Below, piece after piece: positions 13,713-56,612 of a stretch of 64,000 nt of DNA. The stretch is from an uncultured Allomuricauda sp. (GTDB lineage Bacteria > Bacteroidota > Bacteroidia > Flavobacteriales > Flavobacteriaceae). The notes beneath the pieces are model-generated. The model was given only the letters and a program-made list of their open reading frames with translations, was not told the DNA's origin and did not search any database. Positions within the stretch are counted from its first letter, which is position 1; each line of letters starts with the position of its first letter. The stretch lies in assembly GCF_947495325.1 (NCBI RefSeq), contig NZ_CANLYK010000001.1, positions 1,674,001 to 1,738,000 on the forward strand, given 5' to 3'. A program made the position numbers and the translations under genes.

Positions 13713-13757
13713 CAGCATAGTACAGGATGCTAATTATTAAAAACTCCATTATACTTG
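13713..13757 (+). promoter_or_regulatory. PUL operator-promoter 1 (GH78-sulfatase operon)
   Basis: CAGCAT-AGTA-CAGGAT at 13713-13728, then 21 bp, then the -7 box TATACTTG at 13750-13757, 39 bp before the GH78 start codon. This is the same layout as the other PUL promoters. The tandem hexamers sit where the -33 element would be, which suits an activator contacting RNA polymerase. Confidence 0.8.
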
Positions 13758-13795
13758 TTTCTATAAATAGAAGGTAAGTTAAGGACACTCAAAGT

Positions 13796-16567
13796 ATGAT
13801 AAAAAGAGTAACATTAGTATACTGTGCTATTGCATTAAGTTTATCTTTTTGTTTTACGAATTGTGGTGAAAAAAACGAAATTTTACCTGCTCTTGCATTA
13901 ACGGTGAATGAAGGTTTCAAAGACCCTATTGGGTTCTATAGTAACGAGCCTTTGCTTTCTTGGAAACTTCCAGAAACTACTCAATCACAAAGCGCTTACC
14001 ATATAGTGGTTGCATCCAGTCCAGAACTCTTACCCAATAATCCTGATTTATGGCAAAGTGGCAAGGTCGAATCAGACCAGTCAATATTTATAACATATAA
14101 TGGTTCAAAATTAACCTCAAGGCAAAAGGTATATTGGCAAGTGAGGTATTGGGATTCCAACGATGAACCATCGAAATGGAGTGAAATAGCCCATTTAGAA
14201 TTAGGACTATTAGATACTAATGATTGGAAGGGGAAATGGGTAGGGTTACCCACAAGAAGTGATAGTGTTATAGGCGCCAAAAAAACAATAATCCATACGC
14301 CCCAACACCTCAGAAAAAGTTTTGAAATACCCTCAGACGCTACATCTGCAAGGCTCTATGTCACTGCTAAAGGAGTCTTCAGTGCACAAATCAATGGCCA
14401 AAAGATAAGTGATGCTGTCATGTCGCCGGGATGGACTCCGTATGATAAGCGTATTGAATCATTGACGTATGATGTCACTGATTTAATTACATCTGGAGAA
14501 AATACGCTTGGGGTCCAAGTAGCTTCTGGATGGCACTTTGGTCGTATGCTCTGGAATAAACTCATATGGGGACAATCTGGATCTCCAAAAATTTTATGTC
14601 AATTGGAAATAACCTTGAAAGACGGTTCAAAAGAAATTATTGTTTCCGATGACAGCTGGGTCGGTACCACAAATGGCCCAATTCGTTTTGCTGAAATTTA
14701 TGATGGAGAAATCTATGATGCAAATTTTGAGATTCCAGATTGGAGCACTAATACCTTTGATGCCAAGAATTGGAAAGCCGTCGAGATTTCCAACATAGAG
14801 GATAGCATAAAAATTCAACCAAAAAGGCACTATTCGGTGACAGAAAAGACCGCACTTTCTGTTAAGGAAATTATCAAATCAACTGATGGTAGCGTCATAT
14901 TTGACCTAAAACAGAACATGGTAGGTGTTCCCAAAGTAAAAGTCCCGATGAAAAAAGGTGATACTTTAAAAATTCGCTTTTCTGAAATGTTGGCTCCTGA
15001 CGGTAGCTTTTACACCGATAACTATCGTTCTGCACATTCAACCGATTATTACATTGCGGCCAAGGATGGAACCATCGAATGGATGCCTAAGTTTACCTTT
15101 CATGGGTTTCGATATGTAGAACTGAGCGGATTTGACAAATCACAAGTACCTCAAGAAGATTGGGTCACAGGGATTGTACAATATTCAGATTTTGAATCGA
15201 ATGGAACATTTACTTCATCACATGAAAAACTAAATCAACTACAAAGCAATATTGTTTGGGGGTTACGGGGTAATTTTTTCGATATTCCCACAGACTGTCC
15301 ACAACGGGACGAACGTCTTGGCTGGACAGGTGATGCACAAGTCTTTGCATCAACTTCGATGTTTAACGCCGATGTGCATTCTTTTTGGAAGAGCTGGTTA
15401 CAGACCTTAAGGGAGTCACAATTCGAAAATGGAGGGATTCCGTTTGTTGCCCCCGATGTTCTAAAAAATGATGCGGTAAGTTCAGGCTGGGGAGATGCTG
15501 CTGTAATTATTCCTTGGGACATTTATATGCGTACTGGAGACAAATCTGTACTTCAAGAGAATTACCAGATGATGAAAGATTGGGTCGCCCACCATCATAA
15601 TGAAACGGAAGATTATATATCCAACATGAATTCTTTTGGTGATTGGTTACAACCCTATCAGGCCAAGGAGAGCAAAAAAAGAGGTGATACTTCCAAAAAT
15701 CTTATAGGAACTGCCTTTTTTGCTCATGCTTCGCATCTCACTTCAAAAGCTGCTGAAATTTTAAATAAACCTGAAGACAAAGAAAAATATCAAACCCTCT
15801 ATAGAACAGTAGCTGATGCTTTCGAGAACGAATTTTTCGATGAAAACGGCAGCGTGAAAAATGACCAAGGAACCCAAACGGCATATTTACTAGCGTTAAA
15901 CTTTGAGTTGCTTTCAAATGCAAAAGAGCAAAAAGCAAAGAAACATTTAATAGATGAAATAAAAGAAGCGGACAATCACTTGCGTACCGGTTTTTTAGGC
16001 ACCCCATTATTACCCAAGGTATTGGATGACATGGGTGAAATAGACCTTATGTACGAAATACTGTTTAAAGAAACCTATCCTTCTTGGTTCTATTCTATAA
16101 ATCAAGGTGCAACAACAATGTGGGAACGTTGGAACAGCTATAGTAAGGATGAAGGGTACAATCCAGAATCGATGAACAGTTTAAACCATTATGCTTATGG
16201 TGCTGTCGGGGAATGGATGTATGAACGCATTGCTGGCATTAAACCATTAAAACCTGGATATAAGGAAATACGCATTGCACCAATTCCAGGGGGCGGACTC
16301 ACCTCAGGGGAGGCCAGTTACGAATCACTATACGGTAAAATTATTTCATCGTGGAAAATTGATAATGGTATCTTTGAATTAAAAGCTACGGTACCACCGA
16401 ATACCACAGCTAAAATTCATATTCCAACACAAAACTATGGACAGATTATGGTAGATGGAAAACAAGTATCAGCAAATTCAAATCTTTCCTTAATTAGTGA
16501 GAATACTAACTCAATTGAATTAACTGCCCTACCAGGCACCTATATTTTTAATGCTCCTTACAAATAA
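13796..16567 (+). CDS. GH78 alpha-L-rhamnosidase, lipoprotein
   Basis: A 923-residue lipoprotein (lipobox FTNC, Cys23) with the classic multidomain GH78 layout: N-terminal fibronectin-like domain, beta-sandwich Bac_rhamnosid_N domain (about 160-330), an (alpha/alpha)6 barrel (about 450-800) and a C-terminal beta domain. The family signature DCPQRDERLGWTGD is intact, with Glu506 in DER as probable general acid, and MWERW carries Glu777 as probable base. It should release L-rhamnose from alpha-rhamnosides in the periplasm, acting here on desulfated ulvan oligosaccharides. It heads a three-gene operon: the first sulfatase follows by 8 bp and the second by 12 bp. Promoter 1 lies just upstream. 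Confidence 0.93.
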   Translation: MIKRVTLVYCAIALSLSFCFTNCGEKNEILPALALTVNEGFKDPIGFYSNEPLLSWKLPETTQSQSAYHIVVASSPELLPNNPDLWQSGKVESDQSIFITYNGSKLTSRQKVYWQVRYWDSNDEPSKWSEIAHLELGLLDTNDWKGKWVGLPTRSDSVIGAKKTIIHTPQHLRKSFEIPSDATSARLYVTAKGVFSAQINGQKISDAVMSPGWTPYDKRIESLTYDVTDLITSGENTLGVQVASGWHFGRMLWNKLIWGQSGSPKILCQLEITLKDGSKEIIVSDDSWVGTTNGPIRFAEIYDGEIYDANFEIPDWSTNTFDAKNWKAVEISNIEDSIKIQPKRHYSVTEKTALSVKEIIKSTDGSVIFDLKQNMVGVPKVKVPMKKGDTLKIRFSEMLAPDGSFYTDNYRSAHSTDYYIAAKDGTIEWMPKFTFHGFRYVELSGFDKSQVPQEDWVTGIVQYSDFESNGTFTSSHEKLNQLQSNIVWGLRGNFFDIPTDCPQRDERLGWTGDAQVFASTSMFNADVHSFWKSWLQTLRESQFENGGIPFVAPDVLKNDAVSSGWGDAAVIIPWDIYMRTGDKSVLQENYQMMKDWVAHHHNETEDYISNMNSFGDWLQPYQAKESKKRGDTSKNLIGTAFFAHASHLTSKAAEILNKPEDKEKYQTLYRTVADAFENEFFDENGSVKNDQGTQTAYLLALNFELLSNAKEQKAKKHLIDEIKEADNHLRTGFLGTPLLPKVLDDMGEIDLMYEILFKETYPSWFYSINQGATTMWERWNSYSKDEGYNPESMNSLNHYAYGAVGEWMYERIAGIKPLKPGYKEIRIAPIPGGGLTSGEASYESLYGKIISSWKIDNGIFELKATVPPNTTAKIHIPTQNYGQIMVDGKQVSANSNLSLISENTNSIELTALPGTYIFNAPYK

Positions 16568-16575
16568 ATACTTTT

Positions 16576-17913: not shown

Positions 17914-17925
17914 CTAAAATCAAGT

Positions 17926-19615: not shown

Positions 19616-21382
19616 CTAAATGCTTTTTATCTCAATGGTTTTGCTTGGTTTGAATCCAATTCGGTGTGCTTTTACAAGTAAACCATTGCCTTCTTCAATA
19701 GTAAAAGGCCCTTGGTATACCTTCCACGATTTTGGTTCCTTATCATCTTCTCCGATGATTTTATAACCGATGGAAGCACCTTCAGTAGCACAACTTATGG
19801 TAATCCTATTATTGGAAGATGCAACCCTGGGAATTTCGGTAACAGGCTGGTTTTCTTTAGTATCCCATAACTGACTAATGAGTTCTCTCTCTGGCAAGTT
19901 GGGCTGGTCACCGATTTGTACCAACCATCTATCCATTTCTTGACGAAGCTCACTTAGCTTATTGGCATATTCTGGGTCTTCTGCCAGATTATGTAACTCA
20001 TGCGGGTCTGTTTGACAGTCATACAATTCTTCCACAGGTTTGCTTTCTTTAAACCATAACGATTGAATGGAATCCAATTTCCCTTTAGCGCTTAGGCGCA
20101 GTAGTTCTTGCATTGTAGGTATTCGTTCCCGATATTCAACAGGAAGATAATAACCTTGTTCAGGTCTGTAATTTCTAATGTACTTGAATCTTTTGTCACG
20201 TACAGCACGAATTGCATCGGTAAAGGCATCAAAACGGTCTGCGGCCGCATGAATATACTCTCTTTCCTTTTCAGGTTTATATTCTCCTAAAAAGGCATGG
20301 CCTTGAAGATGTTCAGGAGGGTTGGTCCCCGTAAGTGAAAGAAGGGTTGGTGCGAAATCAACAAAACTCACTAGTTGGTCGTCCCTAGTTCCCGCACGCA
20401 TCTTATTTGGAAAACGTACAATCATTGGCGTATTCAATCCTGAATCATAAATCAAACGTTTCTGTCTGGGTAATGGTCCTCCATGATCCCCATAAAAAAA
20501 GATAATCGTGTTCTCCAGAAGTCCATCATCTTCCAATTGCTTTAAGATAGCCCCAACCTGATTGTCCATCTCGGCAATGTTGTTGTACAATTTCCACATA
20601 TCCCTTTTTACAACATCTGTATCGGGTAGATAGGGAGGAATAGAAAATTCGATATCTCTAGGCAAATGCACTGTCGTTTCGGCCTCTGTCATTCGGTCTG
20701 GTTTCCATTTATAGTTCGTATCCCCAGATTTGTAATGTCTGGTCTCACTATATCTATTCCCATAGGGTTCAAATAGCCCAGACTCATGAGTATCCGTAAA
20801 ATTGAAAACTGAAAAGAAAAGCTGGTCAACACCACGGTTTCGCCAATGTGCATACGGACTGCTTTCATCCCATGCGGTTGCTGGTGCTTTAAATTGATAA
20901 TCTTGCTTTGAATTGTTGGTGCAATAATATCCTTTTGTACGCAGCAACTCACTTATCATACGAACTTCAGGTGGAGGCACGGCATCATAAGCTGGCAATC
21001 CTGTAACTTCAGTGTATGATGTGGTTCGCATATGGTTGGCACCAATACTCGAAGGATACATCCCAGTGGCGATGGCGGCCCTGCTAGGAGCACATACTCC
21101 CGAAGTTGAGAATAGATTCGGATAGACAACGCCCTCTTTTGCCAATCGGCTTAAATTTGGAGTGACGATGGTAGAATCACCAAATGAAGGTAAGTAGGCA
21201 CCCATATCTTCGGTAACCAACCATAAAATGTTAGGTCGCTTCGGCAACTCATTATTCATTTCGGTTGACAGTGTATATTTATCCTGTTTAGTCATATCCT
21301 GACAACTTACAGCCACGAATGCCCATAATAGTATAATCAGGAATTGTCTTAATGAGTAGGTCAAAGCGTCCGTAATTATCAT
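19616..21382 (-). CDS. S1 sulfatase with C-terminal chitobiase-like domain (S1_8-like)
   Basis: A 588-residue lipoprotein (FVAVSC, Cys27). The sulfatase domain carries LWLVTEDMGAYLPSFGD, GVCAPSRAAIATG with Cys97, and FFYGDHGGPLPRQKR, a combination typical of the sulfamidase-like S1_8 group found in ulvan loci. The last about 90 residues form a separate beta domain of the CHB_HEX_C_1 kind (ITISCATEGASIGYKI ... PFTIEEGNGLLVKAHR), as often appended to Bacteroidota glycosidases and sulfatases. Transcribed alone on the minus strand from promoter 2 and convergent with the GH78 operon. Sulfate position not predictable. Confidence 0.9.
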   Translation of the reverse strand: MIITDALTYSLRQFLIILLWAFVAVSCQDMTKQDKYTLSTEMNNELPKRPNILWLVTEDMGAYLPSFGDSTIVTPNLSRLAKEGVVYPNLFSTSGVCAPSRAAIATGMYPSSIGANHMRTTSYTEVTGLPAYDAVPPPEVRMISELLRTKGYYCTNNSKQDYQFKAPATAWDESSPYAHWRNRGVDQLFFSVFNFTDTHESGLFEPYGNRYSETRHYKSGDTNYKWKPDRMTEAETTVHLPRDIEFSIPPYLPDTDVVKRDMWKLYNNIAEMDNQVGAILKQLEDDGLLENTIIFFYGDHGGPLPRQKRLIYDSGLNTPMIVRFPNKMRAGTRDDQLVSFVDFAPTLLSLTGTNPPEHLQGHAFLGEYKPEKEREYIHAAADRFDAFTDAIRAVRDKRFKYIRNYRPEQGYYLPVEYRERIPTMQELLRLSAKGKLDSIQSLWFKESKPVEELYDCQTDPHELHNLAEDPEYANKLSELRQEMDRWLVQIGDQPNLPERELISQLWDTKENQPVTEIPRVASSNNRITISCATEGASIGYKIIGEDDKEPKSWKVYQGPFTIEEGNGLLVKAHRIGFKPSKTIEIKSI

Positions 21383-21407
21383 TTTTGTTGTATTTTAAGG
21401 TTTGTTA

Positions 21408-21452
21408 CAATAATACTAGGATTTATAACCAAACGTACCCTGCACTATGCTG
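21408..21452 (-). promoter_or_regulatory. PUL operator-promoter 2 (minus-strand sulfatase)
   Basis: On the minus strand CAGCAT-AGTG-CAGGGT, 21 bp, then -7 box TATTATTG (plus coordinates 21408-21415), 25 bp before the sulfatase start at 21382. The upstream hexamer overlaps the ATG at 21447 of the adjacent pseudogene, suggesting that gene's true start was the ATG at 21489. Confidence 0.78.
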
Positions 21453-21839: not shown

Positions 21840-21884
21840 CAGGATAGAACAGGATGGATAATTTACTTTTGAATCATAAGTTTG
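21840..21884 (+). promoter_or_regulatory. PUL operator-promoter 3 (sulfatase-GH78 fusion)
   Basis: CAGGAT-AGAA-CAGGAT at 21840-21855, 21 bp, then TAAGTTTG (21877-21884), a perfect TAnnTTTG. Both hexamers are exact copies here. The start codon of the fusion gene lies 69 bp further on. Confidence 0.82.
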
Positions 21885-25526: not shown

Positions 25527-27389
25527 ATGGTACAGAAATTTTTACTCCTCTTAATACTGGCATGCATTTCTTGTTCAAAACAACCGCAACCTAAATTTGA
25601 TGGAGAATTGAAGAAATGGCACAGGGTCACCCTTTCATTTGAAGGCCCTGATACCGATGAACTTGCAGATATAAACCCATATCTGGAGTATCGATTGGAT
25701 GTTACTTTTACCAACGGAAACAAAAGCTATGTGGTACCTGGGTTTTACGCAGCGGACGGTAATGCAGCTGAAACCAGCGCTTCCTCCGGTAATATTTGGC
25801 AAGTGAGATTTACACCTGATGCTATTGGTGATTGGAAATATACAGTCTCTTTCAAAAAAGGAAATGAAATCGCAGTGGTGGATACCACTGAAGAAGGGGT
25901 GTCTGCAGGTTTTATGGATGGACAATCCGGTGGTTTTCAAATTACGGAAACCGACAAAACAGGCAAGGACAACAGGGCCAAAGGGCGTTTGAACTATATT
26001 GGAAAGTCGTATTTACAGTTTGAGGAAACTGGAGACTATTTTATTAAACTGGGTGTAGACGCTCCAGAAAATTTGTTGGGCTATGAAGATTTTGATGCCG
26101 CTACCAACGCGTTGGATTTCTTAAAGAAATGGCAACCCCACGCCAAAGACTTCGAAACAGCGGCCGAACCTTTTACGTGGAAAGACAATAAAGGTAAAAA
26201 CTTATTAGGGGCAATTAATTACTTGGCCTCTGAAGAATTGAATGTCTTTTCATTTCTCACCTTTAACGTAGATGGAGATGACCGTAATATTTTTCCGTAC
26301 CTTTTGAAAAAGCCGGTCGCCGAATACGAAGCTTATGCCAGTGACAAAAAGAACAAAGAGGCGTGGGAAAACTTTTTTCATAAAACACGATTGGACGTTT
26401 CCAAACTCGATCAGTGGGAACGCATCTTTGAATATGCTGAGACAAAAGGGATGTTCCTTCACTTTAAAACACATGAGACAGAAACTGACCATTTAATGGA
26501 TGGTGGCGTTTTTGGAATAGAGACCAAACTTTACTATCGAGAACTTATAGCTCGTTTTGGACACCATTTGGTCATGAACTGGAATGTAGGGGAAGAAAAT
26601 GACCAACCTACAGAGGAGGTTTTAAAAGTAGCCAATTACATTCATAAACTTGACCCGTATCAACATCATTTGGTCATGCATACTTTTCCTAATAAAGACG
26701 ACCGATATGAAGAGTTCATTGGTGACCAATCGCCCTTAACAGGAGCATCGTTACAATTAAGTGATGCTGAATTCAGGGATGTACCCCCCAGGGTATTAAA
26801 GTGGAGAACTAAATCGAATGCTACAGGAAGAAAATGGGCGCTTTCCGTTGATGAACCTGGCAAGGCGAATATTGCACTACTGCCAGATGATGAGGATATG
26901 GAGCATAACTTGGCACGTGCGAATGCACTATGGGGAACGCTTATGGCAGGAGGATTTGGTGTGGAATGGTATTTTGGCTACGCTAGTCCAAACTCTGATC
27001 TTACCTGTGAAGATTTTAGGAGCCGCGATTTGTTTTGGGATCAAAACAGACATGCGCTTAACTTTTTTGAAACCCATATTCCATTTTGGGAAATGGAACC
27101 TGCCAACCAACTCACAACAGATGATACAAGTTTTTGTTTCGCTAAAGAAAATGAAGTGTATCTTATCTATCTTCCTATGGAACTTGAAACTACATCCATA
27201 GATTTAGGTAATTCGGGTAAGGATTTCACCATAAAATGGTACAATCCCAGAGATGGCGGCAACCTTAAAGATGGTTCGGTAACTCTTACCAAAGCAAGTG
27301 GCATAGTTGCTCTAGGCCTCCCTCCCACTGACCATGATAAGGACTGGGTAGCTTTGGTTACCATCCTGCACTCTCCTGTAGCATACTGA
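25527..27389 (+). CDS. DUF5060-type putative glycoside hydrolase, lipoprotein
   Basis: A 620-residue lipoprotein (LACISC, Cys16). Residues about 25-130 form an N-terminal immunoglobulin-like DUF5060 domain (KWHRVTLSFEGP, then a pattern typical of the domain, WQVRFTPDAIGDWKYTVSF). The central region looks like a (beta/alpha)8 barrel: NVFSFLTFNVDGDD, FLHFKTHETETDH, HLVMNWNVGEEND and WALSVDEPGKAN, with acidic candidates at strand ends. The C-terminus is a small beta domain of the putative collagen-binding type. Family activity is not established to my knowledge. Probably co-transcribed with the fusion gene. Its last codons overlap an operator-like array on the opposite strand. Confidence 0.75.
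   Translation: MVQKFLLLLILACISCSKQPQPKFDGELKKWHRVTLSFEGPDTDELADINPYLEYRLDVTFTNGNKSYVVPGFYAADGNAAETSASSGNIWQVRFTPDAIGDWKYTVSFKKGNEIAVVDTTEEGVSAGFMDGQSGGFQITETDKTGKDNRAKGRLNYIGKSYLQFEETGDYFIKLGVDAPENLLGYEDFDAATNALDFLKKWQPHAKDFETAAEPFTWKDNKGKNLLGAINYLASEELNVFSFLTFNVDGDDRNIFPYLLKKPVAEYEAYASDKKNKEAWENFFHKTRLDVSKLDQWERIFEYAETKGMFLHFKTHETETDHLMDGGVFGIETKLYYRELIARFGHHLVMNWNVGEENDQPTEEVLKVANYIHKLDPYQHHLVMHTFPNKDDRYEEFIGDQSPLTGASLQLSDAEFRDVPPRVLKWRTKSNATGRKWALSVDEPGKANIALLPDDEDMEHNLARANALWGTLMAGGFGVEWYFGYASPNSDLTCEDFRSRDLFWDQNRHALNFFETHIPFWEMEPANQLTTDDTSFCFAKENEVYLIYLPMELETTSIDLGNSGKDFTIKWYNPRDGGNLKDGSVTLTKASGIVALGLPPTDHDKDWVALVTILHSPVAY
27364..27389 (-). promoter_or_regulatory. Orphan triple operator-like array
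   Basis: On the minus strand CAGTAT-GCTA-CAGGAG-AGTG-CAGGAT: three hexamers each 10 bp apart, the same spacing as the PUL operators. It overlaps the stop codon of the DUF5060 gene and points into that gene. No TAnnTTTG-like box occurs 21 bp downstream, and no minus-strand gene follows. Either it is a relic of a rearranged promoter or it loads regulator for the GH2 promoter about 100 bp away. Confidence 0.5.
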
Positions 27390-27475: not shown

Positions 27476-27520
27476 CCTTACAGTACAGGACACTTTAAAA
27501 TGGTCAAAAAAGTATTTTGG
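27476..27520 (+). promoter_or_regulatory. PUL operator-promoter 4 (GH2)
   Basis: CCTTAC-AGTA-CAGGAC at 27476-27491, 21 bp, TATTTTGG at 27513-27520. The region from here to about 27635 is homologous to the promoter and leader of the GH106 gene (30764 onward). The first hexamer is weak. Confidence 0.75.
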
Positions 27521-27540
27521 TTCATCAGAATTTTTATACC

Positions 27541-30500
27541 ATGCGTAATCGTATTGTTGGCTTATTTTTACCTTTCATCTTACTCTTTTCTTGCAAATTT
27601 GGGCAAAAGGGAGCTTCAACTCTAGAACCATTCTTTATGAAATTGCGAATACGTTTAAGAGAAAGTTTACTTTCATTATTTCTACTTTTTCTTTCAGTAT
27701 CACAAGGTTTTTCACAACGTACTGAAACCAACTTCAATCAAAATTGGCGATTTATTTTAGAGGACGATTCTTCCTTTTCAAAAGGAAATCTAGATGATTC
27801 CGCTTGGACGACTCTAGACATTCCTCACGATTGGTCTTTTGAAAAAGGTGTCAGAGAAGGTGGTGACCAAGGTCAAGGTGGCGGTTATCACGATGGCGGA
27901 ATCGGTTGGTATCGTAAATCTTTCGAACTAAATAAAGAAAGGCTTTCAAACACTACATATATTGAATTTGAAGGAGTCTACATGAACAGCGAAGTATGGG
28001 TCAATGGGGCGTATTTGGGCAAACGACCTTACGGCTATATCAGTTTCAGGTATGATATTTCCAAATATTTAAAAGAAGGTCAAAATACCATTGCTGTCCG
28101 TGTGGACAATAATTTGGAACCATCCGCACGCTGGTATCATCCATGTGGCATTTACGCCCCTGTTCATTTGATAGAAGTACAACCCACACACATTGCGCCA
28201 AATGGCATTTTTATAACCACCCCTAATATTACTGATTCAAAAGCCACTGTAGTTGCTAAAATCAACATGATTGAAGTAAAAAAAGGCTTGGTTTTAAAGG
28301 CAAGCGTACTTTCTCCTAAAGGAAAAATTCTTGTAACTACTTCAAAAAATATCAAAAACATCGAAGATGACTTCCAAGTTGAACTTGAGGTGGCAAACCC
28401 CTCGTTTTGGAGTCCAGAAACACCGGAAGTATACCAGCTCATCACCCAAATAGAGAGCAAAGGAACAGTACTTGACGAAGTCAAGACCAATTTTGGTTTT
28501 AGAACGATTGAATGGAAGACAGAAACCGGGTTTTGGCTCAATGGTGAGAATATCAAATTAAAAGGTGTCTGCGAGCATTGGGAAGGTGGCCCTGTCGGCG
28601 GTGCTTGGACCAAACCTATGCTGCGTTGGAAACTTCAATTACTAAAAGACATGGGCATTAATGCCATTCGTCCATCACACAACCCTACTCCACCGATGTT
28701 CTATGATCTTTGTGATGAAATTGGCTTGTTGGTGATGGACGAAATTTTTGATGGTTGGCATAAAAAAGCAGTACATGATTATGGAAAACAAGCATTTGAT
28801 GCCTGGTGGCAGCGTGATGTCAAAGAATGGATTACCAGAGACCGTAATCATCCCAGCATTTTTGTTTGGAGTTTGGGTAATGAAACCCATAGTACTATTG
28901 CTCCAGAACTAGTGAAATTCGGAAAGAGTTTGGATGCTACACGCTTGTTCACCTCTGGAGCGGGGAATAGTGAGGACATGGAAATTATTGGCGTTAATGG
29001 GGGTTCTGAAACAAAAAGATTCATTGAAAGCAAAACCTTTGACAAGCCGTTCATTTCTACCGAAGCACCCCATACATGGCAAACACGTGGATATTACAGA
29101 ACACAAACATGGTGGCGCGACAACGAATTACCAGGCACCTATCCCTTGCCAGATTTAACGGAAAAGGAAATTTTCTTTTATGAAGGTATCAACCCTAAAA
29201 ATTGGAAAAATAGAAAGCAAAGTTTCAATTCATCATACGATAATGCTACCGTTAGAGTATCTGCAAGAAAATATTGGGAAGTAGTACGCGATTTACCTTG
29301 GCATAGCGGCCATTTCCGCTGGACAGGTTTTGATTATTATGGAGAAGCAGGTTTGGCACACGGAGGTTTACCGTTTAATTTATTCATGGGTGGTGCTTTG
29401 GATGTAGCAGGATTCAAAAAGGATTTGTTCTATTTCTACCAAAGTCAATGGACCAAAGAAACCATGTTGCATATGCTACCAAGTTGGACACACCCTAGAA
29501 TGAAAAAAAGTAATGTAGTGCCAGTTTGGGTGTATTCAAATGCAGATGAAGTTGAATTATTTCTCAATGGCAAATCTTTAGGTAAGGATAAACCGGGAAC
29601 CGTTTGGAACGAAATGCAATGCGAATGGATGGTACCCTACCAAGAAGGAACACTGGAAGCCATAGCGTACAATAAAGGAAAAGAGGTGAAGCGCATATCT
29701 TTAAACACAAGCGGCCAACCTTCAAAATTAAAAACTACAATACATAAATTAGATGCTGAAGGTGGTTTTAATTCGAGTTATATAGTAACCTCAGAAGGTT
29801 TGGATGCCAACGGCAATTTATTTCCATATGCAGAAAACAACGTATATTATAATGTATTGGGCAATTTAGAAAAAGTATCGATTGAAAACGGAAACCCTAT
29901 AGATCCAACAAGTCGTACCAAAGCAGATTATAGGAGTATGTTTTTTGGAAAAGTAAGATTGTTTCTAGAAGAAAAACAAAATGCCCAAGAGGGTTCCCTT
30001 ATTACTGGAGGCATTTTAGGCGATAAAGCACTGTATTTATCCAACCAAGTTTCCATTATCGCCGAAGAAATTCCAATCCTTGGTAAAATCAATAATGCCA
30101 AACTCGAAATACTTTATACTACCAATGGCACTGACCCAGAGACTAGTGGGATTCCATATCAAAAACCATTTGAAGTTACTGATGATACTACGGTTAAAGC
30201 TCTAGTAAAACAAAATGGAGAAGTCGTATTAACCATGCAAGAGACTTTTGGTAAGAATGAAGGGCTATTTTGGGGTGATAAACATTCAGAAGATATGTGG
30301 ATCGGGAGAGGCATCAATATCGCTGCCGAAGAAGCGCTTCTTGAAGGAGATGCAAGAGCTGATAATGGTGCTAGAAGGTATAAAGGTAGTGGATTTGTAA
30401 AATTCGATGGAAAAGAAGGCGCAATAACGTGGTATCAAGAAAACGATGGTGAGGTTGGTGATTATAGCATTCGGTTCAGATATATGCACAACAATACAGA

Positions 30501-30693
30501 TCAACTGCATCCAATGAAATTATTCGTAAATGACCAATACATCAGAACACTGGAGTTTCATCCAACAGGGGGTTGGGAAAAAGAATGGAAATTTGTGCCA
30601 ACCATTATTACCCTTAACGCTGGAGCAAATAACATTCAATTAAAGACTACTGGCAAAAGTGGACCTTTTATTGATGAATTGTACATTGACTAA
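27541..30693 (+). CDS. GH2 glycosidase with C-terminal CBM35-like domain and doubled leader
   Basis: From the ATG at 27541 the protein has 1050 residues. It starts with a lipoprotein leader (LPFILLFSC) and, 32 codons later at 27637, a second Met begins another signal peptide (to VSQGFSQ), giving a 1018-residue form. The GH2 domains follow: sugar-binding (about 65-235), immunoglobulin-like, and a TIM barrel with FVWSLGNE (Glu448, acid/base) and FISTEAP (Glu508, nucleophile). Next come a chitobiase-C-like beta domain (LEILYTTNGTDPETSG) and a CBM6/35-like domain in the last 130 residues (EEALLEGDARADNGAR, ending FIDELYID). Such GH2 enzymes remove beta-galactosyl or beta-uronyl groups; specificity unknown. 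The TTG at 27517 falls in the -7 box and is not the start. Confidence 0.88.
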   Translation: MRNRIVGLFLPFILLFSCKFGQKGASTLEPFFMKLRIRLRESLLSLFLLFLSVSQGFSQRTETNFNQNWRFILEDDSSFSKGNLDDSAWTTLDIPHDWSFEKGVREGGDQGQGGGYHDGGIGWYRKSFELNKERLSNTTYIEFEGVYMNSEVWVNGAYLGKRPYGYISFRYDISKYLKEGQNTIAVRVDNNLEPSARWYHPCGIYAPVHLIEVQPTHIAPNGIFITTPNITDSKATVVAKINMIEVKKGLVLKASVLSPKGKILVTTSKNIKNIEDDFQVELEVANPSFWSPETPEVYQLITQIESKGTVLDEVKTNFGFRTIEWKTETGFWLNGENIKLKGVCEHWEGGPVGGAWTKPMLRWKLQLLKDMGINAIRPSHNPTPPMFYDLCDEIGLLVMDEIFDGWHKKAVHDYGKQAFDAWWQRDVKEWITRDRNHPSIFVWSLGNETHSTIAPELVKFGKSLDATRLFTSGAGNSEDMEIIGVNGGSETKRFIESKTFDKPFISTEAPHTWQTRGYYRTQTWWRDNELPGTYPLPDLTEKEIFFYEGINPKNWKNRKQSFNSSYDNATVRVSARKYWEVVRDLPWHSGHFRWTGFDYYGEAGLAHGGLPFNLFMGGALDVAGFKKDLFYFYQSQWTKETMLHMLPSWTHPRMKKSNVVPVWVYSNADEVELFLNGKSLGKDKPGTVWNEMQCEWMVPYQEGTLEAIAYNKGKEVKRISLNTSGQPSKLKTTIHKLDAEGGFNSSYIVTSEGLDANGNLFPYAENNVYYNVLGNLEKVSIENGNPIDPTSRTKADYRSMFFGKVRLFLEEKQNAQEGSLITGGILGDKALYLSNQVSIIAEEIPILGKINNAKLEILYTTNGTDPETSGIPYQKPFEVTDDTTVKALVKQNGEVVLTMQETFGKNEGLFWGDKHSEDMWIGRGINIAAEEALLEGDARADNGARRYKGSGFVKFDGKEGAITWYQENDGEVGDYSIRFRYMHNNTDQLHPMKLFVNDQYIRTLEFHPTGGWEKEWKFVPTIITLNAGANNIQLKTTGKSGPFIDELYID

Positions 30694-30763: not shown

Positions 30764-30808
30764 CCATACAGTACAGGATACTTCAACAAGGGTAATAAAG
30801 TATTTTAG
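30764..30808 (+). promoter_or_regulatory. PUL operator-promoter 5 (ten-gene operon)
   Basis: CCATAC-AGTA-CAGGAT at 30764-30779, 21 bp, TATTTTAG at 30801-30808, 20 bp before the GH106 start. It should drive the ten closely spaced genes to 46136. Confidence 0.8.
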
Positions 30809-46192: not shown

Positions 46193-46238
46193 CAGGATGG
46201 GGCAGGATACCTATTCAGTTAATATTCCATTAATTGTA
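46193..46238 (+). promoter_or_regulatory. PUL operator-promoter 6 (PL28), divergent variant
   Basis: Two exact hexamers, CAGGAT-GGGG-CAGGAT (46193-46208). The -7 box is less clear: TAATATTC lies 21 bp after the first hexamer, while TAATTGTA lies 22 bp after the second (46231-46238). It is 27-57 bp before the lyase start. The only one of the nine where the spacing is ambiguous. Confidence 0.65.
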
Positions 46239-47940: not shown

Positions 47941-47985
47941 CAGTATAGTACAGGATGACAAATTTCTAAAAAGATGGTAACATTA
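47941..47985 (+). promoter_or_regulatory. PUL operator-promoter 7 (PL37-like gene)
   Basis: CAGTAT-AGTA-CAGGAT at 47941-47956, 21 bp, TAACATTA at 47978-47985. The -7 box is weaker (TAnnATTA) and the start codon is 226 bp away, in contrast to 20-69 bp at the other units. Confidence 0.68.
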
Positions 47986-48211: not shown

Positions 48212-50131
48212 ATGGAACGACGGGACTTCACACAACTCTCCGCTCTAGCTAGTGTAGGATTGTTATTACCCCTACAAGCCTGCAGGAACAAAGTTAATTT
48301 AGAGCATCAAGAAAGTGGTGGATCAATACCATTTGAAGCATTAACTTTTCAACTTTTGACCACGTGGAGCGATGCCATGGTTGACACTCAAATTGATGAC
48401 CCTGAAAAACCGGAAGTACACGGAGCTTTGTATTGCAAAGCTTGTAACCGAATTCATGGTCGCTGTATGGATGCCGTGTATCCTTTTTTATATATGACAG
48501 ATAAAACTGGAGAGCAAAAATACTTGGATGCGGCAATCAATGTGATGAAATGGTCCGAAAACGTCTCCATGCCAGATGGCAGTTGGACAGTAGTTCCCGA
48601 CCCTAAATCTTGGAGAGGCATTACCGTTTTTGGAGCAATCGCCTTAGGCGAAGCCTTACATCATCATGGACACGTCTTACCAAACGAAATTCGTGATGAC
48701 TGGACACAACGTTTACAGAAAGCAGCAAAGTTTATCCATGAAAATTTCACTATAGATTACAGTCACATAAATTATGCCTTCACAGCTGTATATGGTCTTA
48801 ATTTTTTGGGTCGTATGTTTAAAAATGAAGCATATATAGATCATAGTCGACAGTTGGCAGATGAAGTTCCTAATTGGCTGACAACACCCAACAAACTCAT
48901 TTTCGGGGAAAACAAACCTTCCGATGAACCAAGTGTAAAAGGGTTGTTTCCGGTAGACCTCGGTTATAATGTTGAAGAAACCTTGAACGGATTGGTACAA
49001 TACGCCGTTCTAGAAAAAGATGAGCAATTGTTAGAGCTGCTAACAGAGTCAATGAATGGACATCTGGAGTTTATGTTACCCGATGGTGCATGGGATAATA
49101 GCTGGGGTACACGTCAAAATAAATGGAACTATTGGGGCAGTCGAACTACAGATGGTTGCCAACCTGCATTTGCCTTGATGGCAGATAGAAACCCCGCATT
49201 CGGCACCGCTGCATTCTTAAGCACGGAGCTTTTGAAACATTGTACTGTAAATGGCTTGTTGGCCGGAGGTCTTCATTACGAATCCCACGGCATAAAACCT
49301 TGCCTGCACCACACCTTTGTACACGCGAAATCTTTGGCATTTGTTTTGGACAATACTGAGAAGCTATCGAACATTTCAAAAAAAATAGCCCTGCCCAGAA
49401 GTAAAGCCGAAGGAATAAAACATTTTCCCGAACTAGATGTTTGGTTGGCCGCAAAGGGACCATGGAGGGCTACGGTATCCTCCAACGATGTTATTTTTAA
49501 AAAACCGCATTCGCAAGCGGCGACCGGAGGCTCGCTTGCAGTTCTTTGGCACAATAAAGTAGGACCTATTTTCACAGCAAGTATGGCCGAATATATATTG
49601 GTAGAGCGTTACAACCAACAACCCCAACCAAATGGAGAGGATTTTCCCTTGACCCCAAGAATTGAGTCCAATAGAGATGGGAAATGGTATAGCAATCTGT
49701 TCGATTTAAAAGCAAAGGTTAAAACAAACGAAAAAAACAACACGCTTAACTTTGAAGTAGTAACCCAATTGACTGATAGGGAAAGAGCAATTTTACCTGA
49801 TTCCAATTATCAGTTAAATTACAGCTTCAGCATAGAAAAGACGATTATTGTGGCCAAGAAAGTAAATGATACTCCGTTGGATAAAGAAGCGTCATTGGTA
49901 CTTCCAATAATTTCCCCGCAACACGAACAAGTTGTCCAGGTATCAGAAAACCTTATTGAGATTCAAAAAAAAGAAGGTAAGGTTTCGGTTATGGCCAATG
50001 TTCCTCTTTCCATTGTTAAAACAAAAAAGAAACGGGTTTTCAATATGGTACCTGGCATGGAAGCCATCCTTGTAAAAGCGATCTTTGAAGAGCATACAAA
50101 TGAAATTAGGTGTGAGATAACTGTTGGGTGA
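48212..50131 (+). CDS. Tat/lipoprotein polysaccharide lyase (PL37-like, tentative)
   Basis: A 639-residue protein. The N-terminus [19 protein letters not shown] then LQAC combines a twin-arginine motif with a lipobox (Cys24). Residues about 40-400 are helical and fit an (alpha/alpha) toroid: [53 protein letters not shown] and [12 protein letters not shown]. The last about 220 residues look beta-rich. This layout matches two-domain uronate lyases; PL37, which includes broad-spectrum ulvan lyases from Formosa, is my best guess. Candidate catalytic His and Tyr lie in the HINY and NKWNYWG segments. Single gene with its own promoter 7 and the sulfatase promoter behind it. Confidence 0.6.
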
Positions 50132-50153
50132 GTACTATCAAAGTACAAATTTG

Positions 50154-50198
50154 CCAGAGAGTGCAGGACAGTTTACTGTTCTGATAGTTGTATTATTG
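50154..50198 (+). promoter_or_regulatory. PUL operator-promoter 8 (sulfatase)
   Basis: CCAGAG-AGTG-CAGGAC at 50154-50169, 21 bp, TATTATTG at 50191-50198, 33 bp before the ATG at 50232. Its position rules out the longer open frame starting at 50124 as the real gene start. Confidence 0.77.
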
Positions 50199-50231
50199 GT
50201 AATATCGTATAATTACACTTATTCCATAAAT

Positions 50232-51665
50232 ATGAAGCGCTTTTTCTATCATTTTTTACTAGTTATTTTGTTGTCCGTTTCTTGTAAGGGCCAACAAAAA
50301 GAGATTCAAAAAATTGAATCCAAACCCATGAATATCTTAATGATAGCGGTTGATGATTTAAGGCCCGAACTCAATATTTATGGGGCCAACCATATTAAGT
50401 CCCCAAATTTGGACAAGCTTGGTTCTGAAAGTGTGGTATTCGAGCGTGCCTATTGTAATATTCCCGTATGTGGAGCTTCTAGAGCTAGTATATTGACTGG
50501 GGCTCGCCCCACTAGAAATCGTTTCATTGTAGCACAAACAAAGAAAGATGAAGATTATCCCGAAGCTATTTCGTTACCGATGTTGTTAAAACAAAATGGA
50601 TATCGAACAGTTTCAAACGGTAAAATATACCATCATAAAACCGATGATGCCAACGCTTGGGACGAAATCTGGCAAGCCGACCGATTATGGGATTATGCCC
50701 TTGAAGAAAGTCAAGAAATTCGAAGAAATACGCACAGGGGGCTCCCATTTGAATCAGCTGATGTGCATGATTCAGTTTATCGCGATGGTAAATTGGCTTT
50801 GAAAGTCATCGAAGATTTAAAAAAGTTTAAACGTTCGGAAGAACCTTTTTTTCTGACCATGGGCGTGGCAAAACCCCACCTTCCTTTCACAGCTCCAACA
50901 AAATATTGGAATTTATACGACCGTGAAGAAATTAAATTGCCCGAAAGTTATATCCAACCAACATCCACACCCAAAAACGCCTTTCATAAGTTTGGTGAAT
51001 TACGCAATTACGAAGGAATCCCAAAAGAAGGGCATCTCCCTGAAGCTTTAGCCAAAGAATTAATTCATGGGTATTATGCTGCGGTAAGTTATATAGACGC
51101 CCAGATAGGGTTGGTACTGGACGAACTGGACAAGCTTGGTTTGGCAGAAAACACCATTGTTGTACTTTGGGGAGACCATGGATGGTTTCTTGGTGACCAT
51201 CAGCTATGGTGTAAGCATTCAACATTTGAAAAGGCTTTGCGAACCCCATTATTTATTAAAGTACCTGGAAAAACAAACGGTCAGAAAACAAAAGCAATAA
51301 CCGAATACGTTGATCTATACCCTACACTATGTGAGCTTATCGGCCTAGCTGTTCCAAATACTGTTGAAGGGCGTAGTGTTGTTTCCATAATTAATGGTGA
51401 GGAAAGTGATAAGAATTGGGCTGTCAGTAAATTTAAAGATGCCGTCACCTTGATAAAAGGAGATTTATTCTATACGGAATGGACGGATGACAAGGGCATT
51501 GCTTACGAGCGCATGCTATTTGACCATAGCAAAGACCCATTGGAGCTTGATAATTTAGCAGAAAAAAAAGCATATCAAGAATCAGTTGCCCAACTGGCAA
51601 AAGAATTACGGGAAAAATGGGGTAAGGATTTTTTAACAGGTACAGCTGAATCGGAAAAAAATTGA
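50232..51665 (+). CDS. S1 sulfatase, iduronate-2-sulfatase-like (S1_7-like)
   Basis: A 477-residue lipoprotein (LLSVSC, Cys18) from the ATG at 50232; the upstream GTG at 50124 would place the promoter inside the gene. The N-terminus [18 protein letters not shown] and the maturation motif [13 protein letters not shown] (Cys80, CxAxR variant) plus [19 protein letters not shown] are diagnostic for the iduronate-2-sulfatase-like group. It should hydrolyse sulfate esters in the periplasm. It is related to the sulfatase at 17926-19410 but not a recent copy (different maturation and leader). Single gene under promoter 8, converging with the minus-strand GH2 operon. Confidence 0.9.
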
Positions 51666-51686
51666 TACTGTGATTTTCCTTTTTTA
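51654..51686 (+). terminator. Possible terminator after the sulfatase
   Basis: GGAAAA ... TTTTCC pairing around the stop codon followed by TTTTTT. Only about six base pairs, A/T-rich, so weak; its position between two convergent units makes it plausible. Confidence 0.4.
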
Positions 51687-51757
51687 GTGTAGCCAATCCA
51701 ATGTTTCTCAAACATATCTAAAATACCATTTCACAAAATGCAGATTTAACTTATTAT

Positions 51758-52897: not shown

Positions 52898-52936
52898 AAG
52901 GTAGTATATTGAACTTTGCAATTCATTTGACGTAGC

Positions 52937-54094
52937 CTAATTTAACCAAATCAAAGGATAGCGTATAGGCATATTGCGTATTACCTCCGGATTATCAAAA
53001 TCGGCATCTAACTGGTTCCATACATCAAGGTATTCCATATTCTCTAATGAACTACCTGCAAACAATAAAAATGGATGGCGTACCGGCCAATCATCCCAAT
53101 GAAGCACATCCTGTTCATAGGGCCAATCTTCTTTGTTCTTTACATAAGGATATAAAAATTCAACTCCCTTTCTTATACTTCTACCTTCGTAATCATACAA
53201 AAACATGTTGTCATTTGCATTGGAGATTACCTGGGCAATGCCTGTCATGATATCCAAATTGAACAAAGAGTATCCATAAGGCTTGGTCCTATTCAACTCT
53301 TTTGGAAATGAACCGTCTTCAGCCATTTGGCATGGCAACAAAATTTCTTTAAACTTTTCTTTTACATAGGCCTGCATAGTTTCATTCTCTGTAAATTCAG
53401 AAAAAACGGCCGCCTGTAGAAACCAACAGGCTCCGTGGTTGTTATCCTTAGCTTGTTCCGAAATTCCATAAGGGTGGGTATCCATCCATCGTAAATAATC
53501 TGCAAACCAAATCTTCAACTTGGTGATTTCTTCACCAGAAAGCAAATTAGCATCTTGTATGGCGATGATTGCCTTTACCACATCCAATAATTGAATCGTA
53601 TCAATGATGCCTATGCCCCTACCCGTTACCTTACCTTTTATTGCCTGTGCATATTCTAGATTAGGGTTCATCAATGTTGCCTCATCAATAAACCATGCCT
53701 TTAAATGTGGAACCAACTGCTCTACATAATGGGTATCATCGGTAATGAGATAAGCGGACGCCAAAGCACCACATATTTGGCTAAGCCGTATCATAGCATA
53801 GCGGTGTGCCGTAAAATTATTAGGGTTGGTCATTCCATCTTTTCGAATGTAAGGTCCTTCAGGATTTTCAGGGTCGGGCCACCAATAATCACCTTCAGAA
53901 TAAAAATCGTGTATTCCGCCAGCACTACGCTCGCAAGATTCAGCTGTTACCGTTACTGGTGTTGCATCGATATATTTTTCAGCCAATTTTAATATCCTTG
54001 CTTTTTCTTTATCGAAAATAGGGTCATCAAATATTTTTGGCTCTTGCTTACATCCGAGAAAGAAAAGGCATAGTAATACGATTAAATTTTTCAT
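52937..54094 (-). CDS. PF05426 alginate-lyase-fold lipoprotein, copy B
   Basis: A 385-residue lipoprotein (LFFLGC, Cys15). The alginate_lyase fold shows the same landmarks as copy A: GDYWWPDPENPEGPY, AWFIDEATLMNPNLEYAQ, AKDNNHGACWFLQAAVF and WPYEQDVLHWDDWP. It is lipid-anchored while copy A is soluble, so the two probably act at different places or on different ends. Activity could be uronate beta-elimination (PL38-like) or dehydration of terminal uronic acid, as reported for the Formosa oligosaccharide dehydratase. 27 bp after the GH2 gene, so in the same transcript. Confidence 0.78.
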   Translation of the reverse strand: MKNLIVLLCLFFLGCKQEPKIFDDPIFDKEKARILKLAEKYIDATPVTVTAESCERSAGGIHDFYSEGDYWWPDPENPEGPYIRKDGMTNPNNFTAHRYAMIRLSQICGALASAYLITDDTHYVEQLVPHLKAWFIDEATLMNPNLEYAQAIKGKVTGRGIGIIDTIQLLDVVKAIIAIQDANLLSGEEITKLKIWFADYLRWMDTHPYGISEQAKDNNHGACWFLQAAVFSEFTENETMQAYVKEKFKEILLPCQMAEDGSFPKELNRTKPYGYSLFNLDIMTGIAQVISNANDNMFLYDYEGRSIRKGVEFLYPYVKNKEDWPYEQDVLHWDDWPVRHPFLLFAGSSLENMEYLDVWNQLDADFDNPEVIRNMPIRYPLIWLN

Positions 54095-54121
54095 ATCGTC
54101 TTGTTATTAAAACCTCACACC

Positions 54122-56527
54122 CTATTTTTCAATGGTTAGATAAGTACCCTTAAAATTTTGATTTAGGACCATTACGGTTAAATCAATCTCGGTATCATCT
54201 GGAATAATTTCTATGGATGCCTGCCCGTTTGCCATGCCAATGACCTCACTACCAGTAGGTGTTCCTTGGTTTTTAAGGGCCTTACCGCCTTCAAGGCATT
54301 GAAAATATACCTTGTCCTCATAGTCCATACATCGTAACCCATTTTCATCGACGGCCGTGGCGGTTAACAAAAAACTCCCATTTTTTAGTTTAGATGAAGA
54401 AAGCAACAGTTCTTTGGCCGAACCGTTTTTAGTATAGCGGTAAGAAATATTTAGCGTATCACTTATAGTGTTACCAGCCATTTCAGAAACAGCAATCAAT
54501 TGGTTGTCACCCTCTTCAAAATCAACGTCCCAAACAAGACCTGAAGCCGGAAACTTGGTGATGTCTTTCATTTTTTTCCCCAGTTCTTTACCATTGTGGA
54601 TGAGATTGACTTCATCACAGTTACTAAAAACATTGATGCTTCTTGGTTTGCCTTTTGGTCCTTGGCGTTCAGTCCAAGTTTCAGATTCTATGTAAATAAA
54701 AGGGTCTTTGGACCAATAACTTTTAAAAACATAGTATGCATCCTTTGGCTTTCCGTTTCGGTCAACCAAACCTTTTTGGTTAATGTAGGGAATATCGTTT
54801 TCTGGCCGCAAAGGTGTTCCAAAGTCCTTGAATGCCCATTGTGCATTGCCTACAAAAGTCGAGTCGGTTTCGGTTATGCGCAGATGCCAGTCAAATAAGT
54901 CAACAATATAGTTTTCGCTCCAGTCACCTATTTTGGCAATGTTGGCAACCTTGGTCTGAACTATGGCTTCTTCCCATCCTTCCGACTTTATGACTCCCTC
55001 TCCGGTAATGGGGTTCTCGGAATGTCTTCCCACATGGCTAGAACCCCCATATTCTGCATGTAAAAAATGATCGTACTGTGTCTTATAGGTCTCTATGGCC
55101 TTTTGATAACTCTTGTAGCTCCCGGAATACCAGCCCGACCAAATGGATGGAGAGAAAACATCTACGATATCTGCACCTTCATAGTATTTTCTTATCGCCG
55201 TTTTACGGGTAGGGTCCAATTTATGGGCAAGCGTATTCAACTCAGATAAAAAGGTATTCATCTTTGTAGTATCGTCGCCTCCCTCAAAATCGGGCAACCA
55301 GTACATTTCATTGCCCAATGACCAAATAATGATACTTGGGTGGTTGTTATTCTGATTAATGATTTCCGTAAGCATGTTCTTGGTATTCTTCTGCCATTTT
55401 TCCTCACCCAGACCCCCTCTGCACCAAGGAAGTTCATCCCAAACCAAAATACCAAGTTCATCGCAGGCTTTATACACTTCTGGGTCCTGGGGATAATGCG
55501 CCAAACGAACAAAGTTTGCACCCATCTCCTTAATTTGTTCCATATCCTTTCGATGCTGTTGATTTGACATTGCTGCCCCAACGCCTGCATGTTCTTCATG
55601 ACGATGGGTGCCGCGGAGCAATACACGTTTACCGTTAAGATAGAATGGCCCGTTTTTCTTAAACTCAAACCAACGAAAACCTACTTTTTCCAAAACCTCA
55701 TCGATAATTTCTTCCTTATTGGACAATGAAACGCTTACTTCATAAAGGTTTGGTTCCGATATATCCCACAATTGGGGGTCTTGAATATCGTTGATTGATA
55801 TAGTTGTAGTTCCGCTGGTCACATTTTCCGACTTAGACATGACAACTTCTCCTTCTTGATTTTTCAATACTGCAGTAAGTTTCAAATCCGATGCTTGCTC
55901 CATTCCTTCCAAGGGAACTTCAATTTGTAATGAAGCTCTTTCCTGGGATACTTCTGGGGTGGTCAATTTTACGTTCCCAATTGAAATTTTAGGTTTGGTA
56001 ATCAGCCAAACATCCCTTGTAATACCTCCGTAGATGAAAAAGTCACTCTTTTGGGACGGAATTATATCTCTATTGTAACTATTGTCCACACGCACATAAA
56101 CGCTATTCTTGCCTTTTTTTAAGTGTTTTGAAAAGTCAATTTCAAAACCAATATAACCGCCAACGTGTCCACCAACTTCACTACCGTTCACATAAACCTT
56201 TGTGGTTATGTTTGCCCCTTCAAAATAGAGGAGATATCGTGTATCGGAATTGATACTTTTAAGGACAAGCTCTTTTTTATACCAGCTTCCACTTCTTCGG
56301 TAACCGGCCATATTATCCGTTGGGTCTTCGCTGTTCCAGGTATGGGGTAAATCAATGGTAACCCAATCTACATTGTTTTCAACATCTGTAATTTCATGGG
56401 TGGGATTCTCTAAGTACGACCACTTTTTATTTATATTCTCTTTTGTTCTAAGTGCGCCTTCTTCAGGTTTCTGTGCACAATTCAAAAGAAATAAAGCAAC
56501 ACAGAAAATGATACATTTTAATTTCAT
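54122..56527 (-). CDS. GH2 family glycosidase, lipoprotein
   Basis: An 801-residue lipoprotein (LFLLNC, Cys17). The GH2 modules are in order: sugar-binding domain (WVTIDLPHTWNSEDP, GGHVGGYIGFEI), immunoglobulin-like domain, and TIM barrel with IIIWSLGNE (Glu407, acid/base) and HAEYGGSSH (Glu492, nucleophile). A further beta domain closes the protein. Compared with the 1050-residue GH2 of this locus it lacks the C-terminal binding module. The HAEYGG nucleophile strand is common in beta-galactosidase and beta-glucuronidase members; the exact sugar is unknown. First gene of a three-gene minus-strand operon driven by promoter 9. Confidence 0.9.
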   Translation of the reverse strand: MKLKCIIFCVALFLLNCAQKPEEGALRTKENINKKWSYLENPTHEITDVENNVDWVTIDLPHTWNSEDPTDNMAGYRRSGSWYKKELVLKSINSDTRYLLYFEGANITTKVYVNGSEVGGHVGGYIGFEIDFSKHLKKGKNSVYVRVDNSYNRDIIPSQKSDFFIYGGITRDVWLITKPKISIGNVKLTTPEVSQERASLQIEVPLEGMEQASDLKLTAVLKNQEGEVVMSKSENVTSGTTTISINDIQDPQLWDISEPNLYEVSVSLSNKEEIIDEVLEKVGFRWFEFKKNGPFYLNGKRVLLRGTHRHEEHAGVGAAMSNQQHRKDMEQIKEMGANFVRLAHYPQDPEVYKACDELGILVWDELPWCRGGLGEEKWQKNTKNMLTEIINQNNNHPSIIIWSLGNEMYWLPDFEGGDDTTKMNTFLSELNTLAHKLDPTRKTAIRKYYEGADIVDVFSPSIWSGWYSGSYKSYQKAIETYKTQYDHFLHAEYGGSSHVGRHSENPITGEGVIKSEGWEEAIVQTKVANIAKIGDWSENYIVDLFDWHLRITETDSTFVGNAQWAFKDFGTPLRPENDIPYINQKGLVDRNGKPKDAYYVFKSYWSKDPFIYIESETWTERQGPKGKPRSINVFSNCDEVNLIHNGKELGKKMKDITKFPASGLVWDVDFEEGDNQLIAVSEMAGNTISDTLNISYRYTKNGSAKELLLSSSKLKNGSFLLTATAVDENGLRCMDYEDKVYFQCLEGGKALKNQGTPTGSEVIGMANGQASIEIIPDDTEIDLTVMVLNQNFKGTYLTIEK

Positions 56528-56567
56528 TATAAACCTATTAAAAATGATGAGAGTCTCCCATTGCGAT

Positions 56568-56612
56568 TAAAAGTAGGGTGGTCAAGTTTTGGTTTCATCC
56601 TGTACTATCCTT
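56568..56612 (-). promoter_or_regulatory. PUL operator-promoter 9 (minus-strand GH2 operon)
   Basis: On the minus strand AAGGAT-AGTA-CAGGAT (56597-56612), 21 bp, then TACTTTTA (56568-56575), 40 bp before the GH2 start. Same layout as the plus-strand sites, in the opposite orientation, as expected for a functional promoter. Confidence 0.8.

Follow-up and report, generated by a model that had tools for sequence, protein, structure and literature searches.

Control of polysaccharide loci in flavobacteria tends to be credited to the neighbouring hybrid two-component system (HTCS), and the HTCS motifs predicted for Bacteroides, in the available text of Ravcheev et al. 2013 (PMC3878776), consist of direct repeats spaced by about 21 bp. 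Among the rhamnose regulons that Rodionova et al. (2013) described, rhaEW and polymer-degrading genes fall into one regulon, as is proposed here, and the sites of the DeoR-type RhaR are direct repeats with a 10-11 bp periodicity, like the operator described below; the main text of that paper (PMC3870299, available in part) nowhere contains the word GntR. The accessible part of PMC5698469 describes a marine flavobacterium, Zobellia, in which a monosaccharide induces genes of the carrageenan polysaccharide utilization locus and a cytoplasmic-type regulator, CgrA, acts positively. Within the GntR family, AraR is named a minor subfamily, and the direct-repeat operators of FarR, NagQ and NanR are given as exceptions to the palindrome rule in the part of the family review at hand (PMC4494728); for NanR, a repressor, the direct repeat is also described in the available text of PMC8012715. 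FucR and ManR of Bacteroides are likewise listed in the GntR family. Here we analyze a window of 64,000 nt from an uncultured Allomuricauda sp. (contig NZ_CANLYK010000001.1; plain numbers are window positions and numbers after C1: are contig coordinates), in which nine transcription units begin with a pair of hexamers, CAGNAT-N4-CAGGAT. Based on sequence comparisons, these sites are likely bound by a cytoplasmic, AraR-type GntR protein, here called GntR2, which is encoded beside the rhamnose operon.

The operator pattern comprises the 16-bp core CAGNAT-N4-CAGGAT and a TAnnTTTG-like -7 box at a spacer of 21 bp, and the reversed pattern was used as a control. The initial annotation had proposed one operator-promoter architecture common to the nine units, with the box exactly 21 bp after the second hexamer in eight of them. 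All nine hexamer pairs are present, position and strand included, the box is found in eight with the exception of 46193 (TTAATTGT), and the common architecture is supported. An independent matrix, trained on 40 foreign rhaEW promoter sites only and then applied to the 96-kb locus, scores two of the sites as weak (46193, 8.8; 50154, 5.4) and the remaining seven at 13.6-26.7.

13713..13757, + strand: putative GntR2-type operator (13713-13728) and -7 box TATACTTG (13750-13757), promoter of the glycoside hydrolase (GH) family 78 gene and the following genes; score 23.7
21408..21452, - strand: operator (21437-21452) and box TATTATTG, promoter of the sulfatase gene 19616-21382; score 13.6
21840..21884, + strand: operator and box TAAGTTTG, promoter of the sulfatase-GH78 fusion; score 18.9
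27476..27520, + strand: operator and box TATTTTGG, promoter of the GH2 gene 27517-30693, with a likely start ATG near 27541; score 20.4
30764..30808, + strand: operator and box TATTTTAG, promoter of GH106 and the following genes; score 19.3
46193..46237, + strand: weak operator upstream of the ulvan lyase gene, without a TAnnTTTG box at spacer 21 (TTAATTGT); score 8.8
47941..47985, + strand: operator and box TAACATTA, promoter of the gene 48212-50131; score 26.7
50154..50198, + strand: weak operator and box TATTATTG, promoter of a sulfatase gene with a likely start ATG near 50232; score 5.4
56568..56612, - strand: operator (56597-56612) and box TACTTTTA, promoter of the GH2 gene 54122-56527 and the following genes; score 17.8

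The list of nine sites is real and incomplete, as three further promoter sites lie beyond the window: before kduI (C1:1741296), before a second SusC gene (C1:1745741) and before rhaEW (C1:1755756). With at most one mismatch, the core occurs at eight places in the window, six of which are sites of the initial annotation; the other two overlap each other inside an open reading frame (ORF; 27363 and 27373, minus strand). All four perfect core matches in the window are intergenic, though ORFs cover 92% of it. The independent matrix yields 11 sites scoring at least 13 in the 96-kb locus (10 intergenic, one coding) versus a mean of 0.45 in Markov-random sequence. Training on foreign rhaEW promoters recovers seven of the nine window sites and also yields three coding matches in the 96-kb locus. 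In the genome as a whole the core alone has weak specificity, with 13 matches at up to two mismatches versus 7 for the reversed pattern; of these, seven belong to promoters of this locus and six fall within ORFs, where no box follows at 21 bp. When the box is included, eight matches with up to two mismatches are found in 4.1 Mb, all within C1:1,687,713-1,755,800, and 32 with up to three mismatches versus 8 for the reversed pattern.

We searched 199 family genomes, in which each genus as listed is represented once, with the motif plus box, the HTCS, GntR2 and RhaEW; the tallies use per-genome rows and best matches, among the matches listed. The motif with its box gave 392 matches in 82 genomes, up to 20 per genome, versus 29 matches in 28 genomes for the reversed pattern. 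Based on a threshold of at least 55% identity, 42 genomes encode a GntR2 relative; every one has at least one motif match and 36 have three or more, versus 2 of the 157 genomes without such a relative. Three or more matches are found in 15 of the 16 genomes with an HTCS relative versus 23 of 183 without, and in 37 of the 47 genomes with RhaEW versus 1 of 152 without. Where GntR2 and a close HTCS occur together (15 genomes), all 15 have three or more matches. The 27 genomes with GntR2 and no close HTCS all have at least one match, and 21 of them have at least three. G010 is the only genome with an HTCS relative (48% identity, a frame with one stop) and no GntR2 match, and it has zero motif matches. 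Five genomes with RhaEW and only a distant GntR have 1, 1, 1, 1 and 3 matches, and among the remaining 151 genomes one has at least three. Because the first HTCS survey scored only three candidates per genome, the search was repeated with the receiver and helix-turn-helix (HTH) part alone and up to 59 candidates per genome in the 43 genomes with either protein. The same 16 genomes carry HTCS relatives, at 61% identity or more; among the remaining 27, the top score reaches 239 bits (44%), with at most 48% identity among the matches listed. It is suggestive only that the motif marks GntR2 rather than rhamnose genes as such, with only the five distant-GntR rhaEW genomes separating the two.

The operator precedes the rhamnose catabolic operon in most of the regulator-bearing genomes, as in a rhamnose regulon. 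Upstream of rhaEW, the core (up to three mismatches, box not required) is present in 40 of the 41 testable GntR2 genomes, each with TA at spacer 21; the stretch of G002 is cut by a contig end. Among the distant-GntR genomes, G064 and G108 have degenerate sites at spacer 21 upstream of rhaEW, G020 has CAGGAT alone at that spacing (identified by eye), and G024 and G037 have no site there. A second set, capped at 80 named loci found by homology to GntR2 (Arenibacter, Maribacter, Zobellia, Algibacter, Nonlabens ulvanivorans and others), contains sites in 70 loci, 135 in total, of which 109 have the box at exactly 21 bp (next spacing, 11); the reversed matrix gives 11 sites in the same loci. Site presence follows GntR2 identity: 69 of 72 loci at 59% or more, 1 of 7 at 51-56% and 0 of 1 at 28%. 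In 20 loci that surround GntR paralogues of 36-42% identity, 220 kb in all, there is one match only, and that one has no box. On a tree of 102 proteins the motif label changes 5 times versus 25.3 in shuffles, with 0 of 500 shuffles as low; this tree leaves out the short rows L164 and L239, has 5 unlabelled rows, and includes 20 control rows labelled motif-free, though L242 has one match without box. A clade of six GntR proteins of 51-56% identity (L226-L229, L231, L232) has no such sites nearby.

From 12 of the 27 genomes with GntR2 and without a close HTCS we took 15 stretches. These were chosen by motif matches and their spacer counts are biased for that reason, whereas the rhaEW and GntR2-homology sets were chosen by gene. 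In these stretches, sites precede rhaEW operons, GH78, GH106, GH105/88, sulfatase genes and SusCD relatives. The rhaEW gene lies in the stretches of 12 of 12 genomes and the GntR2 gene in those of 11 of 12; in G061, GntR2 is about 13 kb outside. The initial annotation had tied the operator to ulvan loci, and that specificity is not supported: in motif clusters that lack the HTCS, the sites precede rhamnose-catabolism operons beside a GntR/LacI-type regulator.

Two such regulators are encoded just outside the window.

C1:1754456-1755499, - strand: GntR2 gene, divergent from the adjoining rhamnose operon (rhaEW, isomerase, kinase, transporter)
C1:1744561-1745592: GntR1 gene, a paralogue 58% identical to GntR2, following the kduI gene run

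GntR2 has an N-terminal GntR winged HTH (PF00392, E 9.7e-10), with PDB matches to GntR DNA-binding domains, AraR included, and a C-terminal LacI-type sugar-binding domain (PF13377, E 2.5e-6, 28.1 bits versus a cut-off of 26.5). A predicted model of its relative from Arenibacter troitsensis (not of GntR2 itself) has a mean predicted local distance difference test score (pLDDT) of 89.1, and its first Foldseek match is the Lac repressor (E 6.4e-14). NCBIfam models matched GntR1 and GntR2 below cut-offs only. With a GntR HTH, a LacI-type sensor and a gene beside a sugar-catabolism operon, GntR2 is like AraR of B. subtilis. It differs in its proposed operator, a direct repeat of 10-bp period whose distance to the -7 box is fixed and not a GT/AC palindrome, and in its suggested role as an activator. 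FarR, NagQ and NanR, whose GntR HTH likewise reads head-to-tail repeats, belong to other subfamilies and recognize other sequences, and CgrA, in the available text of PMC5698469, is an AraC-family regulator that responds to a different sugar. Titles and abstract beginnings of the papers listed on ulvan, rhamnose and GntR, subscription papers not covered, describe neither a flavobacterial GntR-type rhamnose regulator nor this operator. We consider it likely, from domain content and co-distribution, that the GntR-type protein binds the CAGGAT sites, and GntR1 may share them.

The operator columns show a direct repeat of head-to-tail hexamers at a 10-bp period; the palindromic GT...AC form is not seen. 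Class II activators bind at -41.5. The sigma-A box of Flavobacterium psychrophilum is at -12 to -5 in the available text of PMC9723704, and therefore the 16-bp site spans -49 to -34, with its centre at -41.5. This agrees with the earlier claim that the position fits an activator. No TTTG element in the -33 region is conserved across the sites. The GntR-type regulator of the CAGGAT sites is probably an activator centred at -41.5.

Several observations weigh against the assignment to GntR2 or against an activating role. G127, a GntR2 genome, has no motif directly before rhaEW, and the stretches covered of three loci with GntR2 relatives of 69-74% identity contain no site (L176, as well as L192 and L201, both at contig ends). 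GntR-family operators are usually palindromes, and the word 'activator' is absent from the available text of the family review (PMC4494728). The recognition region of the HTH, SRDTVEKAY, is nearly identical in relatives without the motif nearby, and the operator specificity is therefore left unexplained. Among GntR2 genomes, an HTCS relative goes with more motif matches (median 10 versus 6, p 0.0017), which may reflect extra ulvan genes. The co-distribution is also compatible with an unlinked regulator of the same distribution, which we regard as improbable for the reasons given below.

Repression is the usual mode of GntR/LacI-type proteins, and AraR of Bacillus and FucR of Bacteroides are repressors. 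A GntR/LacI-type protein that binds the sites as a repressor and is released by rhamnose would share its binder with the reading we prefer, and the direction of control is less sure than the binder. Such a repressor would fit sites that overlap the -33 region, but 109 of the 135 sites found via regulator homology keep the box at 21 bp, a fixed spacing that repression does not need, and the -33 region lacks a conserved TTTG element. We consider repression unlikely.

Rather less probable is that the motif is bound by a different rhamnose-metabolism regulator, unlinked but of identical distribution, while the GntR protein acts elsewhere. RhaEW is nearly as good a predictor of the motif as GntR2 (37 of 47 versus 1 of 152), AraC-type HTH matches occur in the motif clusters of 3 of the 12 genomes with GntR2 and without a close HTCS, and in the G050 cluster, where nine unlabelled ORFs were annotated, an extracytoplasmic function (ECF) sigma factor and a FecR-type anti-sigma factor (L075:9664-11488, - strand) adjoin a CAGGAT site and a SusCD pair. 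Among GntR1/GntR2, the HTCS and AraC-type HTH proteins, however, only GntR2 recurs in these clusters, and the five rhaEW genomes with a distant GntR have few matches. None of the eight unlabelled ORFs annotated by Pfam in the G184 stretches is a regulator; this annotation covered G050 and G184 of the 12 genomes.

The initial annotation had proposed the HTCS at the window's end as the binder, with the paired HTH motifs of the AraC-type domain making the contacts. The following features bear on this proposal.

62718..64000, - strand: C-terminal part of the HTCS (1369 aa, extending beyond the window to C1:1740827), with kinase, receiver and AraC-type HTH
59480..62503, - strand: SusC1, a TonB-dependent transporter, whose promoter has no CAGGAT operator
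62628..62682, - strand: candidate HTCS operator, a 9-bp direct repeat GGATTTTTG / GGACTTTTA with a 22-bp period and the box TAACTTTG, in the promoter of SusC1-SusD1-GH88

The position from -49 to -34 would suit an activator of this kind, the length of the site fits one AraC-type domain, and nearly all genomes with a close HTCS relative have at least three motif matches. The distribution of the CAGGAT sites nevertheless does not follow the HTCS: 27 of the 42 GntR2 genomes bear the motif without a close HTCS, and G010 has the HTCS and no motif. No second copy 21 bp upstream is conserved in 11 CAGGAT sites, unlike the published HTCS motifs (PMC3878776, as far as available). The promoter of SusC1, beside the HTCS gene, has a different repeat that follows the HTCS, and no good match to the CAGGAT motif exists before SusC1 (best -10.7) or before the HTCS gene (best 0.3). 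We conclude that the HTCS as binder is unsupported and very unlikely. The initial annotation had itself counted against its proposal the motif at similar density outside ulvan-related promoters and another regulator found to bind instead; in silico, the motif does occur outside ulvan promoters and another regulator is the better candidate.

The SusC1 repeat fits the Bacteroides motifs in the available text of PMC3878776, being a direct repeat of 22-bp period beside the HTCS gene, and from its sequence and distribution it appears to be the HTCS's own operator. Counted from where the second repeat begins, the box lies 25 bp downstream. We drew up the pattern by eye, using the gaps that separate the HTCS gene from the following operon in relatives, and the box was not part of it; in 11 of 16 HTCS genomes, among them this one and G010, the 9-bp repeat recurs at a 22-bp period and a TAnnTTTG-like box has the same offset. 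The 22-bp repeat is missing there from G163, G129, G011, G115 and G002, of which G129, G011 and G002 carry a CAGGAT site in that stretch instead. Based on a matrix from ten foreign copies, the SusC1 element ranks first in the 96-kb locus (44.7) and a coding match second (10.9). Period-22 repeats number three in this locus (two overlapping, in a triple repeat before kduI) versus 0.1 expected, and 23 other periods from 15 to 38 give 0-2. A whole-genome search with the SusC1 element (up to three mismatches) found only itself. The data favour a separate operator for each regulator, with the CAGGAT repeats assigned to the rhamnose-type GntR protein and the 22-bp repeat to the HTCS.

As an explanation of the CAGGAT sites, chance or a promoter feature general to the family has a negligible probability: TAnnTTTG boxes are general sigma-A elements and the 16-bp core alone is barely above its reversed control in this genome (13 versus 7), but core plus box give 392 matches versus 29 reversed, 342 of them in 42 genomes, and the spacing is exact upstream of rhaEW and in the GntR2-homology loci. 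The initial annotation's view that chance is very unlikely is borne out for site plus box, for which both the genome scan and the 199-genome counts reject it.

If the sites are read by GntR2, the nine in the window and the three just outside would be operators of a cytoplasmic AraR-type regulator, which would bind a head-to-tail repeat of CAGGAY-like hexamers with a 10-bp period and a centre at -41.5, filling the usual -33 region. As rhamnose or a derivative accumulates, this regulator would activate sigma-A promoters and switch on rhamnose catabolism, rhamnose-releasing ulvan enzymes and some SusCD pairs together. The HTCS would be a second, separate input that drives SusCD through the 22-bp direct repeat before SusC1, and possibly before kduI. 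We put forward only tentatively the full proposal: that a GntR/LacI-type class II activator on head-to-tail hexamers at -41.5 ties rhamnose catabolism to loci for rhamnose-containing polysaccharides across marine Flavobacteriaceae and that, together with the HTCS, it forms a two-signal ulvan circuit in which periplasmic oligosaccharide turns on uptake and cytoplasmic rhamnose turns on the enzymes. If true, many ulvan enzymes would be under a monosaccharide-type regulator that also governs rhamnose catabolism, and the HTCS would have a different, smaller target set. The matrix would then predict rhamnose-glycan regulons in dozens of genera, the fixed-geometry operator could be used for inducible promoters in genetically tractable relatives, and the capacity of GntR-type proteins to activate could be tested in this system.

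The triple 22-bp repeat before the kduI operon lies outside the window (C1:1741332-1741384; L014:11332-11384, + strand) and overlaps the box of a CAGGAT site, and dual control of this operon is possible. With the SusC1-type matrix it ranks third (8.2), below the coding match. Around the 27476 operator, three CAG hexamers in 10-bp steps lie about 90 bp before it, on the minus strand (27363-27388) within the 3' end of the DUF5060 gene. In four loci from Zobellia, Maribacter and an uncultured relative (L175, L186, L188 and L193), three to four hexamers at a 10-bp period stand upstream of the 21-bp spacer.

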